A stretch of DNA of 64,000 nt, from positions 1-64,000 of the forward strand of contig JABCZR010000006.1 of the NCBI GenBank assembly GCA_013289585.1, read 5' to 3'. The position numbers and the translations under genes were made by a program. The DNA comes from Acidobacteriota bacterium (lineage in GTDB: Bacteria > Acidobacteriota > Terriglobia > Acidiferrales > UBA7541). Below are positions 44,359-51,226 of the stretch, one piece after another; position 1 is the first letter of the stretch; every line of letters begins with the position of its first letter. The notes under the pieces were generated by a model. That model was not told the origin of the DNA. It did no database searches and was given only the letters and a program-made list of their open reading frames with translations.

Positions 44359-45471
44359 TCAGGGATGTGAATCCAAGTAGGCGCCGAATTGCGCCAAGGC
44401 TTCGGGCATGTTCTTGCGGCCGAAGCCGAAGCGGATGTGGCGCGGCTGGTCGTAGACGGTGCCCGGCAGCAGAAGGACTCCTGCATCGCGGACAGTTTTT
44501 TCGCAGAAAGCGAGTACGTCTTGCTCGGGTTTGAGCCGGACGAACCCGATGGGGCTGGCGTTGGGCCTCACCCATTCAAATCGGTTCGAGCGCCGAAGGA
44601 TAAAGGCATCGAGAAGCTGCAGGTTGCGTAATACAAGTTCCCGGTTGCGCTGCACCAGGACTTCGCGATGGCGGAGGGCGAGCGCGCTAAGAAATTCGCT
44701 GGGAGCGCTGTTGCAAATGGTGGTGTAGTACCTGAATCCCAGACAGCGGCGGAGAATTTCTGGATTGCGACTGGCGAGCCATCCGAGACGAAGGCCGGGC
44801 AGACCGTAGGTCTTACTCATGGAGCCCAGGCTAACGGCATTTTCGTACACTTCGCAGGCGGCCGGGAGACGCGTCGCGGGTTCGTGTTCGAGCTCGCGGT
44901 AGACTTCATCCGAAAACAAAATAATCCTGCGGCTCGCCGCCAGATCAAGAACTTGTTTGAAAATGCCTGCCGGCATTAAGAGGCCGGTAGGATTGTGAGG
45001 CGTGTTGATGTAGATGATTTTGGTGTTTGGCTGGAGCAACTTTTCAAGGACGGCGACGTTGTGTGCCCATCCGCTTTCGAATGAGCGGGGCCATTCGCTC
45101 ACCTGAGCCCCGGTGCTACGCGCAACCTCCAGGCCGCTCTCGTAACATGGGGTTTCGACGATGATGTGATCGCCGGGCCCCGCTAATGCGTGGTAGAGGA
45201 CGAAGATACCTTCTTCGGCGGCTGCTACAACAAGAACATCGTCCGGGCTGAGTGGATGGTAGATAGCGGCGATCGCTTGCCGAAGATCGGGGGCCCCCGG
45301 CGATTCGGTGTAGCCGCACCAGTGTTTGAGGAGGCGGTCGTGGGCGCCTGGCTCTAGATCGAGCAGTTCCTGTATCGCGCGGGACTCCGCATCGGAACTA
45401 GAGAGCAGGTATTTGGCGGTGAACTCATATTTGCCGAAATACTGCTCTATACGAAAGGGTTTGATTTGCAT
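44359..45471 (-). CDS. PLP-dependent class I/II aminotransferase
   Basis: YINTPHNPTGLLMPAG; LFSDEVYRELEH; SLGSMSKTYGLPGLRLGWL. Confidence 0.92.
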   Translation of the reverse strand: MQIKPFRIEQYFGKYEFTAKYLLSSSDAESRAIQELLDLEPGAHDRLLKHWCGYTESPGAPDLRQAIAAIYHPLSPDDVLVVAAAEEGIFVLYHALAGPGDHIIVETPCYESGLEVARSTGAQVSEWPRSFESGWAHNVAVLEKLLQPNTKIIYINTPHNPTGLLMPAGIFKQVLDLAASRRIILFSDEVYRELEHEPATRLPAACEVYENAVSLGSMSKTYGLPGLRLGWLASRNPEILRRCLGFRYYTTICNSAPSEFLSALALRHREVLVQRNRELVLRNLQLLDAFILRRSNRFEWVRPNASPIGFVRLKPEQDVLAFCEKTVRDAGVLLLPGTVYDQPRHIRFGFGRKNMPEALAQFGAYLDSHP

Positions 45472-45657
45472 GCGAAAGAGTCTGGCAAGCCCTGTATCCC
45501 GCAGTCCAGAACCAAATTGACCGGGTCGCCCGGAAGCTAAGCCAATCGGGATATTGGCGTTCCTCCAGAGGTTGATGCAGGTGCAATTTGGCGGGCTGGC
45601 GGGTATGATACGAGGCTCGAAGTCCCCAACACGACCAAGTGACCAGAGGGCCACTCC

Positions 45658-46794
45658 ATGGCTCACCGCTTTACTATCGGCGTCGAAGAAGAATTTCAAA
45701 TCATAGATCCCGCCACGTGCGAGCTACGTTCGCACGTCAGCCACATCGTCTCAGAGATTTCCCCGGATATCGCCGAGCAGGTTAAAAATGAGCTTCACCA
45801 ATCGATCGTGGAAACCGGCACGCGGATCTGCGAGAACGTTAGTGAATTGCGCATCGAGATGCACCGGACGCGAGGCGAATTGGTGGCAGCGGCGGAACGC
45901 GCGGGGCTCCAGGTTGCGGCGGCGGGCACGCATCCTTTTTCAAGCTGGATCGATCAGGTTATCTCTCCCGGCGAACGTTACCAGCACATCGTGGAAGAGA
46001 TGGGGCAACTGGCGAGATCGTTGCTCATCTTCGGGATGCACGTGCACGTCGCAATGCCGGACAAGCAGACCACCATCGACATGATGAACGGTGTTCGCTA
46101 TTTCCTGCCACACCTGCTGGCGCTTTCCACCAGCTCGCCATTCTGGATGGGACGGAACACGGGATTGAAGTCTTTCCGCACGACGGTGTTTCGCCGGTTT
46201 CCGCGGACGGGCGTGCCGGAGCAATTCGAATCGTGGAGCGCTTACGAAAATTTCGTAAACCTTCTCATCCGGCTGAACTGTATCGACAACGGGAAGAAAA
46301 TCTGGTGGGATGTGCGGCCGCATCCGACATTTGGCACGCTGGAATTCCGGATGTTCGATGTCTCGACGAAAGTGGAAGAGGCAGTGGCCATCGCGGCACT
46401 CACGCAGGCGATCATCGTGAAGCTGCATCGCCTTTACCAGGGCAATATGAGCTGGCGGCTCTACCGGCGGGCACTGATCGAAGAAAACAAGTGGCGGGCG
46501 GCGCGCTACGGCATTGAAGGAAAGCTCATCGACTTCGGCAAAGAAACCGAAGTGCCCATGCGCCAACTAATCGTGGAATTGTTGGAATTTGTGGAGGATG
46601 TGGTCGACGACCTGGGAAGCCGCAGCGCGGTCGAATACGTTCACACAATTATTAATGAGGGCACCAGCGCCGACCGGCAATTGCGTGTGTATAAGGAAAC
46701 GGGCGACCTGAAAGCCGTAGTGCGCCACCTCGTTGCAGAAACGCGCGGCGGAGTGACCGAGCCGCACACATCTTCCGCGCACGCGGTGAATTAG
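45658..46794 (+). CDS. carboxylate-amine ligase (GCS2/YbdK-like)
   Basis: FTIGVEEEFQIIDPATCELRSHV; ELRIEMHRTRGEL; HVHVAMPDKQTTIDMMNG. Confidence 0.9.
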   Translation: MAHRFTIGVEEEFQIIDPATCELRSHVSHIVSEISPDIAEQVKNELHQSIVETGTRICENVSELRIEMHRTRGELVAAAERAGLQVAAAGTHPFSSWIDQVISPGERYQHIVEEMGQLARSLLIFGMHVHVAMPDKQTTIDMMNGVRYFLPHLLALSTSSPFWMGRNTGLKSFRTTVFRRFPRTGVPEQFESWSAYENFVNLLIRLNCIDNGKKIWWDVRPHPTFGTLEFRMFDVSTKVEEAVAIAALTQAIIVKLHRLYQGNMSWRLYRRALIEENKWRAARYGIEGKLIDFGKETEVPMRQLIVELLEFVEDVVDDLGSRSAVEYVHTIINEGTSADRQLRVYKETGDLKAVVRHLVAETRGGVTEPHTSSAHAVN

Positions 46795-46830
46795 TGAGCC
46801 AGTTCCACAGGTCCTTGCGGGAGCACAAAT

Positions 46831-47901
46831 ATGAAAAAAGTTGGCCTTCTTTGCGGGCGAGAATACAGCTTTCCTCCGGCGTTTATCGAGCGAGTGAATG
46901 CGCTTGGCGCGAAGGATGGAGTGACAGCGGAATTTGTAAAGCTTGGCGGCACGCGCATGGGCGAGCCAGCGAAGTACAGCGTGATCGTGGACCGCATCTC
47001 CCATGAAGTCGAGTATTACCGCGGCTACCTGAAGCATGCCGTTCTACAGGGCACGTACGTCATCAACAATCCGTTCTGGTGGACGGCCGACGACAAGTTT
47101 TTCAACTATGCGGTGGCTGCGAAGCTGGGTATCGCCATCCCGAAAACGGTCTTGCTGCCACAGAAGGGTTACCCGAGCGATGTGGATATCAACAGCGAAT
47201 CGCTGCACAACCTGGAATACCCCGTGGATTGGGACGGTTTGCTGGACTATGTTGGACGGCCGGCGATCCTTAAGCCATTTTCCGGCGGTGGATGGAAGCA
47301 CGTCTACAAGGTGAATAACAAAGAAGAATTGCTGGCGGCGTATGACAAGACCTCGCCGTATTGCATGACATTGCAGGAGTTCATCGATTTCACTCAGTAT
47401 GTGCGCTGCTTCACGTTCGGGAAGATGGACATCCTGCCAGTGCACTACGATCCGAAAGAACGCAAGTACCTGGTGGAACACCAGTATCTGACCGCGGAGC
47501 TTGGCGCCCGCGTGGTGAAAGATGCGCAGACGATCAACCAGGCGCTCGGCTATGAGATGAATACCATTGAGTTTGCCGTTAAAGACGGTGTGCCTTACGC
47601 CATCGACTTCCTGAATCCCGCTCCGGACTTTGAACGCGACCGCATCACGGAATTTTATTTCGCGCACGTGGTGGAGAAGATGGCGCGGCTGGTGATCGAC
47701 CGCGCGGTGAATGGGAAGGCCTCGAATCCCTGGCCACGATGGGAAGAGATGCTGGGAATCGGCGCCGCGGCTGGATTTACGGGAGCGCCGAGGAGCGTCG
47801 CAGCAACGCAGTCCGCGAGCGGGCAGGCAACGACAAAGGTTCAAGCAGCTCCGGCGGCAGCCGTACCCTCAGCAGGACCATCGGGAACTCCGACAAAATG
47901 A
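46831..47901 (+). CDS. ATP-grasp domain protein
   Basis: GRPAILKPFSGGGWKHVYKV; EMNTIEFAVKDGVPYAIDFLNPAPDFERD. Confidence 0.85.
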   Translation: MKKVGLLCGREYSFPPAFIERVNALGAKDGVTAEFVKLGGTRMGEPAKYSVIVDRISHEVEYYRGYLKHAVLQGTYVINNPFWWTADDKFFNYAVAAKLGIAIPKTVLLPQKGYPSDVDINSESLHNLEYPVDWDGLLDYVGRPAILKPFSGGGWKHVYKVNNKEELLAAYDKTSPYCMTLQEFIDFTQYVRCFTFGKMDILPVHYDPKERKYLVEHQYLTAELGARVVKDAQTINQALGYEMNTIEFAVKDGVPYAIDFLNPAPDFERDRITEFYFAHVVEKMARLVIDRAVNGKASNPWPRWEEMLGIGAAAGFTGAPRSVAATQSASGQATTKVQAAPAAAVPSAGPSGTPTK

Positions 47902-49295
47902 CGAGCGCCGCTCCAGCTTCGATGACTCCTCCGACTCCACAGGAGGAATGGAACGAGATTTTGAAGACGACGCTTCTGCGCGTGCCCTCCCTTCCTCAGG
48001 ATCTGTTCAAGCGGATGCGCAAAGCGAAGCTCACGTTTGGCGATCGTGTGCACTGTCCTTTTTTGCGTCCGTTTTTTCTTTCTCCCGAAGATGAGGACCG
48101 CGTTCGAACGGTGGCGGAAGGCATCGCGGCACTGGCCGAGCGCGTCACCCTGGCTGCACTTGACGATCGGCATCTCTTCGCGCAATTCCATCTCCGGGAG
48201 GAAGAGGAACGCCTGGCGCGGATGCACACGGGATATGGACCGGCGAGCACCGCTTCGCGGCTCGATGCGTTTTTGCTCCCCGATTCACTCAAGTTTGCCG
48301 AATACAACGGCGAGTCGCCCGCGGGTGCGGGCTACGCGGAGACGCTGGCCGGGATTTTCAGCGAACTCCCGGTCATGGGCAAATTTTCGCAACATTATGA
48401 GGTCCACACTTACCCGCTCATCGCCAAGCTGCTGGACGCGCTGATGATGAGTTATCTGGACTGGGGCGGCTCGTCGACGACTCCGCAGATAGCCATTGTG
48501 GATTGGGAAGGTGTGCCCACCTGGAGCGAATTCGAAATCCTCCAGGAGCGTTTTGAGAGAATGGGCGTGCCCACGCTGATCGCGGATCCACGAGAACTGG
48601 AGTTCGACGGCAAGACGCTGGTGGCACAGGGCAAAGTCATTGACATGGTCTACCGCCGGGTGTTGATCAACGACATCGTGGCGAAGCCGGCGGAATGCGC
48701 CGCGCTGGTAAAAGCGTACTCCGCGAACGCCGTATGTGTGGCGAATAACTTTCGCTGCAAAATTCCGCACGTGAAAGCTTTTTTCGCGGTGCTGACGGAC
48801 GAGCAAAACGGCGCGCTGTTCTCGCACAGCGAACGCGAACTGATTCGAAATCATATTCCCTGGACGCGCATCGTCGCCGACATCAAGACGGCGCATTACG
48901 GACGGCAGGTGGAGTTGCTCGCCTTTATCCGGGAGCAGAGGGAAAACCTGGTGCTGAAGCCCAGCGACGAATATGGCGGCTCTGGCGTCACGCTCGGTTG
49001 GGAAACGGAGGAAGCCGCGTGGGATGACGCGATCGAACGCGCGTTGACAGCGAAAAATGGCGTTTGGATCACCCAGGAGCGAATTCCGATTCGCCGCGAG
49101 GTCTTTCCATACATCACGGATGTAGGTCAGGTGCATTACCGCGACATGCTGGTGGATTTTGCGCCTTATTTGTTTAGAGGAAAGTTATGCGGATTCCTAA
49201 CGCGGCTGAGCGCCACGGGCCTCGCGAACGTGACCAGCGGCGGCGGCCAGGTTCCAGCGTATCGAGTCTCCGCGAAAACTCTCGCGGCCGAGTGA
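47898..49295 (+). CDS. circularly permuted type ATP-grasp protein
   Basis: ATGA overlap with upstream gene; LKFAEYNGESPAGAGYAETLAGIF; NLVLKPSDEYGGSGVTLGWE. Confidence 0.85.
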   Translation: MTSAAPASMTPPTPQEEWNEILKTTLLRVPSLPQDLFKRMRKAKLTFGDRVHCPFLRPFFLSPEDEDRVRTVAEGIAALAERVTLAALDDRHLFAQFHLREEEERLARMHTGYGPASTASRLDAFLLPDSLKFAEYNGESPAGAGYAETLAGIFSELPVMGKFSQHYEVHTYPLIAKLLDALMMSYLDWGGSSTTPQIAIVDWEGVPTWSEFEILQERFERMGVPTLIADPRELEFDGKTLVAQGKVIDMVYRRVLINDIVAKPAECAALVKAYSANAVCVANNFRCKIPHVKAFFAVLTDEQNGALFSHSERELIRNHIPWTRIVADIKTAHYGRQVELLAFIREQRENLVLKPSDEYGGSGVTLGWETEEAAWDDAIERALTAKNGVWITQERIPIRREVFPYITDVGQVHYRDMLVDFAPYLFRGKLCGFLTRLSATGLANVTSGGGQVPAYRVSAKTLAAE

Positions 49296-49426
49296 TAGCA
49301 ACATCACTGCGGGGGTGAGAGTTTGCAACAACGTGCCAGCCCCCTGACCGTCTGGCCAGTTTGGAACAGAACGCATCTGGAATGCTTACCCTAGAAAATT
49401 TTCCCAATTCAAGTAGAATTAATTAG

Positions 49427-50452
49427 ATGAACTTTGGTACTCCCAGAGCCGAGTTGATGCCAGGCGCGCGCAACGCCGTGGAAACATGCCTCAGTGTTCG
49501 GCCCGGCGAGCATGTCGCGCTCATTGCCGACGATGCCAGTCGCGCCGTCGCAGCGGGTATTGCCGCAGCACTGGACGACCGCGGCGCCGTATACACCGGA
49601 TTGTTGCTTGAAGACTTCGGCCCCCGGCCGATGACCGCGGCGCCACCAGCCGTCTTGCAAGCACTGGAAATGGCGGACGTAGGCGTGATGTGCATGACGC
49701 CACAGCCTGGCGAGCTGGCGGCGCGTATGGCCATCGTGCGAGTGGTCGAGCGGCGTCAGATCCGTTATGCACATATGGTTGGCGTTACTCCAGAAATTAT
49801 GCAGCAGGGCATGCGTGCGGACTACCGCATGGTGGACAAGCTGAGCGACAAACTTCGCGAACGCATGCTGCGCGCGGAAACACTTACGGTGAAGTCCGAT
49901 GCCGGAACAGAGATTGCCGCGCATTTCGATCGTGGCCTCGACTGGGTAAAGACCAGCGGGCTCATCAGCCCGCGCTATTGGTCGAACCTTCCGGCCGGAG
50001 AAGTTTTCACGACTCCCGCGACCGTGGACGGCAGATTTGTGTGTGATGCCACGGCGGGCGACCATTTCAATGGCAAGTATGGGGATCTGCAGACCACGCC
50101 GCTGGTGCTGGAGATTAAAGGCGCGCGGCTTGTTGACGTCGAATGCGCGCGAAAAGACTTGGAAAAGGAATTTTGGGAATACTGCCACACAGATGAGAAC
50201 AGCGACCGAGTCGGCGAGCTGGCTTTCGGCACCAATCTCGGCCTGTCGGAGATGATTGGAATTCTGCTTCAGGATGAAAAGTTTCCCGGCGTGCACATCG
50301 CTTTCGGCGACCCTTATGGCAGCCAGACCCACGCGGACTGGAAATCCCGGACACACGTGGACGTACTGACTCGCAACTGCGACGTCTGGATCGACGACGA
50401 CCAAGTCATCGAAAAGGGCAAATACCAGCTCGAACATCTCGGCCTGGCCTGA
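49427..50452 (+). CDS. aminopeptidase (M29 / aminopeptidase T-like)
   Basis: GEHVALIADDASRAVAAGIAAAL; ELAFGTNLGLSEMIGILLQDEKFPGVHIAFGDPYGSQTHADWKSRTHVDVL. Confidence 0.8.
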   Translation: MNFGTPRAELMPGARNAVETCLSVRPGEHVALIADDASRAVAAGIAAALDDRGAVYTGLLLEDFGPRPMTAAPPAVLQALEMADVGVMCMTPQPGELAARMAIVRVVERRQIRYAHMVGVTPEIMQQGMRADYRMVDKLSDKLRERMLRAETLTVKSDAGTEIAAHFDRGLDWVKTSGLISPRYWSNLPAGEVFTTPATVDGRFVCDATAGDHFNGKYGDLQTTPLVLEIKGARLVDVECARKDLEKEFWEYCHTDENSDRVGELAFGTNLGLSEMIGILLQDEKFPGVHIAFGDPYGSQTHADWKSRTHVDVLTRNCDVWIDDDQVIEKGKYQLEHLGLA

Positions 50453-50494
50453 AGTCTCCGCTACTCGGCGGTAGATCTGCTTCGAGTTTCAAAT

Positions 50495-51226
50495 TCAAAA
50501 CAACTTGGAGATGTATTCGCGCATCTGGTGTTTCCAGTACGGCCAGTCATGGCCGCCCTGCGGGCCCCAATTGTCGAGCGAATGGCAGATGCCTTTGCTG
50601 GAGAGAATTTCGGAGAGGCGGTAGGTTGGCCCGCTGTTTTCCCACTGGCCGGTGCCGGTGGTGATATGGATGTCGCACGAAGCGATCTGCTCATAAAACC
50701 AGGGATCGTTCATGTTGGAGAGGTAGTCGACGGGATTATTGAAATAGAAATTGTCGTCGTACATGCCGTCCATGAAATTTTTCACGTCGTAGACGCCAGA
50801 CATAGCGAAGCATCGCTTGATGACGTCGGGGTGTTTGAAAAGAGAGTTCGCGGCATGATACGCGCCGAAGGAAGCACCCATCGTGGAGATGCCGATTCCC
50901 GGCGATTGGCAGCTATCCCAGATAAAAGGGACGACTTCTTCGCGCAAATAAGAGTCGAAAACGGACTGCACATAGCTTCGATGAAAGGGATGCGCGCCTT
51001 TATTGTAAAAGCTGAGGCCATTGATGGAATTAATGGTGAAGAATTTCACTCTTCCAGCGTCAATGAAATCCGCCAGCGCGCCGACCATGCTTTGGCCTTC
51101 GAGTTCCATCTCGTCGCCCGCACTGGTGGGGAAACCTAGCAGTGGTGGCCCCCAATGGCCGTAGACAACGACACCAAGCTCCATGCCGAGCCGCGGGGAA
51201 TGCCAGCGGTGATATTCACGTTTCAT
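50495..51226 (-). CDS. esterase-family alpha/beta hydrolase
   Basis: MKREYHRWHSPRLGMELGVVVYGHWGPPLLGFPTS; GISTMGASFGAYHAANSL. Confidence 0.85.
   Translation of the reverse strand: MKREYHRWHSPRLGMELGVVVYGHWGPPLLGFPTSAGDEMELEGQSMVGALADFIDAGRVKFFTINSINGLSFYNKGAHPFHRSYVQSVFDSYLREEVVPFIWDSCQSPGIGISTMGASFGAYHAANSLFKHPDVIKRCFAMSGVYDVKNFMDGMYDDNFYFNNPVDYLSNMNDPWFYEQIASCDIHITTGTGQWENSGPTYRLSEILSSKGICHSLDNWGPQGGHDWPYWKHQMREYISKLF

Follow-up and report, generated by a model that had tools for sequence, protein, structure and literature searches.

The window analysed here is a 64,000-nucleotide stretch from a soil Acidobacteriota genome (contig JABCZR010000006.1), in which a first-pass annotation had placed a five-gene cluster at positions 45658-51226. 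All five genes are present at these coordinates, and we refer to them as YbdK, ATPg, cpATPg, M29 and Est. As that annotation claimed, three consecutive plus-strand genes encode C-N ligase-type enzymes: YbdK (45658-46794, 378 residues), a YbdK-type GCS2 carboxylate-amine ligase (PRK13515); ATPg (46831-47901, 356 residues), a Ddl/LysX/RimK-like ATP-grasp ligase that forms the core of the module; and cpATPg (47898-49295, 465 residues), a circularly permuted ATP-grasp with the fold of glutathione synthetase (GSS), glutathionylspermidine synthetase (GspS) and YgiC. Downstream lie an M29-type metallopeptidase-like protein (M29, 49427-50452, plus strand, 341 residues) and, convergent to it on the minus strand, a PF00756 alpha/beta-hydrolase (Est, 51226-50495, 243 residues). 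The spacing is 36 bases between YbdK and ATPg, -4 between ATPg and cpATPg (a genuine ATGA overlap at 47898-47901), 131 between cpATPg and M29, and 42 between M29 and Est. Gaps of this size could accommodate a ribosomal precursor peptide gene, such as those of graspetide and other RiPP clusters, only if it had no more than about 40 codons, although small open reading frames farther off were not searched systematically. We argue below that the five genes probably constitute one amidoligase pathway, independent of nonribosomal peptide synthetases (NRPS), for a small metabolite; the product would be a short peptide, probably gamma-glutamyl, or a peptide-amine, and the hydrolases would be dedicated to it.

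YbdK matches PF04107 in Pfam (206 bits) and passes the equivalog cut-off of the NCBIfam PRK13515 carboxylate-amine ligase model (NF010039; 527 bits, cut-off 371). Its G-V-E-E-E metal motif is kept, with G8 and E10-E12 at least 95% conserved among 53 sequences, and the closest solved structure is E. coli YbdK (1r8g, E 1.6e-53). The identities of ATPg and cpATPg are weak by sequence, with support from predicted structures. ATPg has no Pfam match and scores 35 bits against the RimK model, under its cut-off; its profile resembles Ddl and biotin/pyruvate carboxylases. Foldseek searches with its AlphaFold model (predicted local distance difference test, pLDDT, 90) returned the D-Ala-D-Ala ligase Ddl (3r23), LysX (3vpd; LysX/ArgX), RimK (5zk6) and graspetide macrocyclases. 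Residues K148, G152-G154, E247, D259 and N262 are invariant in 45 sequences, drawn from relatives of 44-79% identity. Relatives of ATPg at about 28-31% identity (L184, L185, L186 and L187) form an outer family; they sit outside the module, except that the one in L187 has Est after it.

The resemblance of ATPg to RimK and LysX, whose substrates are proteins or carrier proteins, raises the alternative that the ligases modify a macromolecule (a protein, peptidoglycan or a lipid) in the style of RimK or Pup ligase, with the peptidase removing the tag. GCS2 enzymes are also thought to be ancestral to Pup ligase (PMC2588565). We nevertheless consider macromolecule tagging improbable; we saw no recurring gene beside the module for a tag peptide, a carrier protein or a modification target, the gaps leave no space for a precursor above the size given, and the set is better matched by enzymes that act on small molecules (GSS, GspS, Ddl and YbdK).

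Returning to the small-metabolite pathway, cpATPg reaches 26.9 bits against PF14403, below the cut-off of 32, and the Pfam scan found neither PF03738 (GSP_synth) nor a second Pfam domain in its 465 residues; some of its relatives match PF03738 below cut-off. The family profile points to 3n6x (E 6.4e-9), Cp1B (E 4.8e-5) and YgiC (E 0.003), and there is a weak match to PRK12458 (E 0.009). The AlphaFold model (pLDDT 94) matches human GSS in Foldseek (E 1.6e-17, TM 0.67), as well as plant glutathione synthetases, E. coli YgiC/YjfC, fungal Cp1B and glutathionylspermidine/trypanothione synthetases. Among relatives of 44-79% identity, R121, D123, N137, E139, K354, D357 and D420 are kept and E135 is nearly invariant. 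R-x-D followed by E-x-N is the substrate/magnesium pattern of eukaryotic glutathione synthetase and GspS, which we treat only as a lead.

The M29-like peptidase and the convergent esterase both score above their Pfam cut-offs (M29 against PF02073, 41 bits, cut-off 27; Est against PF00756, 36.6 bits, cut-off 22). In the profile alignment, E192, E264 and H290 of M29 align with the aminopeptidase AmpS, and H310/D312 with the H-x-D of NicX; all are conserved. With its PF02073 match and AmpS metal ligands, M29 is a putative metallopeptidase. A dihydroxypyridine dioxygenase was considered, NicX being the best sequence match in the PDB, and rejected: the peptidase ligands are kept in M29, yet several are absent from NicX. 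Est carries the nucleophile motif G-A-S-F-G, for which almost every row of the alignment shows the pattern G-[AC]-S-[FL]-G, and H-D-W-P is kept. Its convergent position in the window is by itself no argument for membership in the module; we include it because in other classes the Est family lies in the same direction, immediately upstream of ATPg. At L111:8178-9059, L069:14398-15234 and about 14 more loci (Acidobacteriota), a second, longer PF00756 esterase adjoins Est.

PF00756 includes S-formylglutathione hydrolase, and the first-pass annotation had floated a glutathione-like product. The cpATPg fold and the GCS2 family of YbdK lend that idea some structural support, and together they could suggest a glutathione-like low-molecular-weight thiol, with YbdK as gamma-glutamyl-cysteine ligase, cpATPg as a glutathione synthetase analogue and Est as an S-acyl-thiol hydrolase. 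The genome of the window contains no match to GSH-S_ATP, and Est members do match the enterochelin esterase and S-formylglutathione hydrolase models, but weakly and far under the cut-offs. The genome also encodes BshC outside the window (G000:C3:145203-146297, 298 bits), so bacillithiol is the likely thiol and a thiol product of the module becomes less likely. Cyanobacteria, moreover, are known glutathione makers, and the module occurs there too. The thiol part of the earlier suggestion is thus not favoured, and we rate it a very unlikely outcome.

The small-metabolite pathway is supported by the recurrence of the genes. Within relatives of the window, cpATPg was detected in 35 of 61, nearly all within the genus, and YbdK, ATPg and cpATPg are contiguous in fetched loci of sufficient reach, with M29 and Est mostly after them, at times several kb off. 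L038, from another family of the same class, has YbdK-ATPg-cpATPg-M29 without the surrounding synteny of the genus, so the linkage of these four genes extends beyond local synteny. Two other class members with about 30% cpATPg identity (L039 and L040) have no partner genes at the locus.

We also searched a named genome collection with the ATPg profile, which gave at least 561 relatives. The 80 best, chosen by similarity, come from records of Acidobacteriota, Chloroflexi, Obscuribacterales, Armatimonadetes and Ignavibacteriae. The order of the window (YbdK>ATPg>cpATPg>M29><Est) is only one of several; Terriglobia such as Edaphobacter, Bryobacter and Acidobacteriaceae have Est>ATPg>YbdK>M29>cp' (where cp' is a second cp-like ATP-grasp), Obscuribacterales and Chloroflexota have Est>ATPg>cpATPg>YbdK, and the phylum of L102 has cpATPg>YbdK>M29>ATPg. 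L102 is an Obscuribacterales record, which we take to be Cyanobacteriota in GTDB. The families thus occur together in Acidobacteriota, Chloroflexota and Cyanobacteriota in differing orders, contrary to what the first-pass annotation named as grounds for dropping its proposal, that the genes would not be co-conserved in other genomes. Recurrence in distant taxa with other gene orders excludes chance clustering, and the shuffling across phyla points to selection rather than inherited synteny.

To obtain an independent sample, we ran the ATPg search on 159 evenly drawn Acidobacteriota genomes and fetched 40 loci regardless of their neighbours. The 36 loci with a strong ATPg carried, within the fetched stretch, YbdK in 18, a cp-type ATP-grasp in 20, Est in 17 and M29 in 6. 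At least one partner gene lay within about 10 kb in 28 of the 36, and at least two in 20; by our estimate, one such gene would lie this close by chance in a 5-Mb genome in well under 1% of cases. Outside Acidobacteriota, linkage was found in 10/13 Chloroflexota and 7/7 Cyanobacteriota loci.

The ligases also co-occur genome-wide. Across the 159 genomes, ATPg was present in all 24 with a strong cpATPg (p 4.5e-17), in 34 of the 45 with a close YbdK (p 4.7e-17) and in 11 of the 12 with a strong M29 (p 1.9e-6), p-values that are inflated by phylogeny. Twenty families have ATPg, and 12 of these also have cpATPg. One family (f31) retains all three ligases though they are scattered, for example on contigs 11, 15 and 21 of G097. 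Between the three ligases, distances correlate strongly (r 0.84-0.91, against a largest value of 0.19 in 999 permutations).

Two positions in the module are filled by alternative families. A second ATP-grasp family (cp', about 400 residues) is the last gene of the Terriglobia operons and aligns with cpATPg across the K-P..G-x-G-V region (hhalign E 1.9e-5, probability 78%). Of the 87 loci that contain both YbdK and ATPg, cpATPg is present in 46 and cp' in 26, and no locus has the two together. In L134, a contig filed under Ignavibacteriae, ATPg is followed by this second cp-like ATP-grasp. M29 is likewise replaced by a cysteine-hydrolase-like (GATase-like, GAT) family with the motifs A-V-C-H-[ST]-F-G and N-H-H-P-E, which are reminiscent of the Cys-His-Glu triad in class I amidotransferases; no Pfam model matches the family. 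GAT stands in M29's place in Vicinamibacterales and elsewhere (cpATPg>GAT><Est in L073, YbdK>GAT>cp' in L159), with members at L153:13060-14196, L073:12304-13440, L170:11904-12974, L159:6919-7917 and L098:3605-4735. M29 occurs in 47 loci, GAT in 6 and both in none. That two unrelated hydrolases share a slot is an argument for amide hydrolysis as a genuine step.

It could still be supposed that the five genes are independent neighbours with separate known reactions, and a close YbdK does occur without ATPg in 11 of 45 genomes. Linkage and co-occurrence rule this out, in our judgement to the point where barely any likelihood is left: the genes recur in three phyla in shuffled order, cpATPg is accompanied by ATPg in 24 of 24 genomes, and the slots are mutually exclusive. 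The proposal of a single amide or peptide pathway with an undescribed product is instead supported by this cross-phylum co-conservation, by the shuffled orders and by the slot-for-slot replacement.

Several observations weigh against that proposal. ATPg stands alone in 31 loci within the fetched stretch (some stretches being short), and many loci lack M29 or Est. Nine genomes of the Acidobacteriota sample have ATPg without a close YbdK and 11 have YbdK without ATPg; four YbdK loci fetched from genomes without a strong ATPg (L237-L240) have no module partner around them. Lone ATPg loci and genomes missing one of the two imply that parts of the module may serve other settings. Common descent would also account for part of the co-occurrence and of the correlation between distances, and the kinship of cpATPg with its proposed substitute cp' is weak.

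The strongest rival is amine conjugation. Here YbdK and cpATPg would couple polyamines or toxic amines to glutamyl or peptide groups, and the amines would be freed again by the peptidase and the esterase, giving amine buffering or envelope protection rather than a dedicated end product. By fold, cpATPg groups with GspS, trypanothione synthetase and E. coli YgiC/YjfC, the latter two reported to be peptide-spermidine ligases (cited in PMC12568646), and its relatives weakly match the GSP_synth model; it matches the amino-acid-adding glutathione synthetases equally well, however. A GspS-like ligase has been described in PspA and polyamine operons (PMC11237479), and a PspA gene lies near ATPg in about 10 Blastocatellia-type loci, but this adjacency is restricted to one locus group, and no polyamine gene is prominent among those recurrent neighbour clusters that could be identified. 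On balance we think amine handling unlikely.

In the Blastocatellia-type loci, PspA (PF04012) and a protein of about 283 residues lie upstream of ATPg (L090, L095, L097, L100, L104, L106, L107, L110, L119 and L166), and PspA is divergent from cpATPg in L095, L106 and L119. The TPR and LolA-like neighbours in Blastocatellia were rejected as module members because they are group-specific. In the window, a pyridoxal phosphate-dependent aminotransferase of the PRK07324/capreomycidine-synthase-like group (44359-45501) is divergent from YbdK and stands beside the module only in the genus; this gene, a zinc-finger gene, DinB and a molybdenum-enzyme gene were set aside because their synteny is limited to the genus. 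A search for plasmid carriage of the module gave no match.

How might the single pathway that we favour work? With three ATP-dependent ligases but neither an NRPS nor a carrier protein, and with no space for a precursor gene inside the run, the set suggests the stepwise synthesis of a small compound. By analogy with the chemistry of the closest folds, YbdK would act first, activating a side-chain carboxylate by phosphorylation (the gamma-carboxylate of glutamate is the likeliest) so that an amine or an amino acid can be joined to it. cpATPg would then phosphorylate the C-terminal carboxylate of the dipeptide for addition of a second amino acid or amine. ATPg may form another peptide bond in the same compound, its place being the least certain step. 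M29, or elsewhere the GAT hydrolase, would cleave or trim the product, and Est would hydrolyse an ester or thioester on the product or a precursor; if both act on this compound, as we infer, they could serve either turnover or maturation.

We tentatively suggest that the product could be a widespread primary metabolite that serves as a cofactor, an osmolyte or a protectant and has a turnover arm of its own, though we lean slightly away from so broad a role; chemically, it might be a tripeptide with a gamma-glutamyl group or a peptide-amine. If true, Acidobacteriota, Chloroflexota, Cyanobacteriota and their neighbours would share a metabolite with a spread comparable to known small thiols and compatible solutes. 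The ATPg core occurs in about a quarter of the genomes sampled (43/159 Acidobacteriota and ~37 to 39/151 Chloroflexota), and such a peptide-like metabolite may be common among soil and water bacteria. Functions would also be assigned to ligase families hardly recognised by Pfam and NCBIfam. As the module is small, has clear substitutions and occurs in the cultured genus Edaphobacter (Edaphobacter lichenicola, L111), identification of the product is directly testable.

Amongst known systems, glutathione biosynthesis is alike in combining a GCS2 ligase with a circularly permuted GSS-fold ATP-grasp. The GCS2-type gamma-glutamyl ligase is recognisable in YbdK from its PF04107 match and G-V-E-E-E motif, cysteine specificity being putative, whereas no glutathione synthetase is found by sequence model in the genome and cpATPg approaches one by fold and the weak PRK12458 match. 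Unlike glutathione operons, the module adds a Ddl/RimK-like ligase, a metallopeptidase and an esterase, in a genome with BshC; the identity to GSS is about 14%. Glutathionylspermidine/trypanothione synthetases and YgiC/YjfC share the cpATPg fold (Foldseek E ~6e-15 to 1e-9), with the weak YgiC profile match. In contrast to glutathionylspermidine synthetase, a GSP_synth domain fused to an amidase, cpATPg has no fused amidase domain in the Pfam scan and no polyamine genes were seen nearby; an amine substrate would be putative. The COG2308/alpha-E/NTN-hydrolase peptide-tagging systems differ as well: cpATPg scores below the cut-off of PF14403, and neither an alpha-E domain nor an NTN hydrolase turned up in the Pfam scan of eight window genes or in those recurrent neighbour clusters to which an identity could be given.

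NRPS-independent amidoligase neighbourhoods are already known as a kind. Iyer, Abhiman, Burroughs and Aravind reportedly predicted such pathways by comparative genomics in 2009, with ATP-grasp and GCS2 ligases and peptidases in the same neighbourhoods. Searching the literature by COG numbers and enzyme names, we found no description of this exact gene set, although that 2009 survey was not covered and may list the module. Added here are the cross-phylum distribution with its statistics, the replacements at two positions of the module and the assignment of folds. A final comparison is the fungal E-64/Cp1B system, which differs in its oxygenase-made warhead, its ANL-type amide synthetase and its lack of GCS2 (PMC12568646). 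It is alike in using a stand-alone ATP-grasp of cpATPg's fold, which makes a pseudodipeptide before a second ligase acts (PMC12568646).

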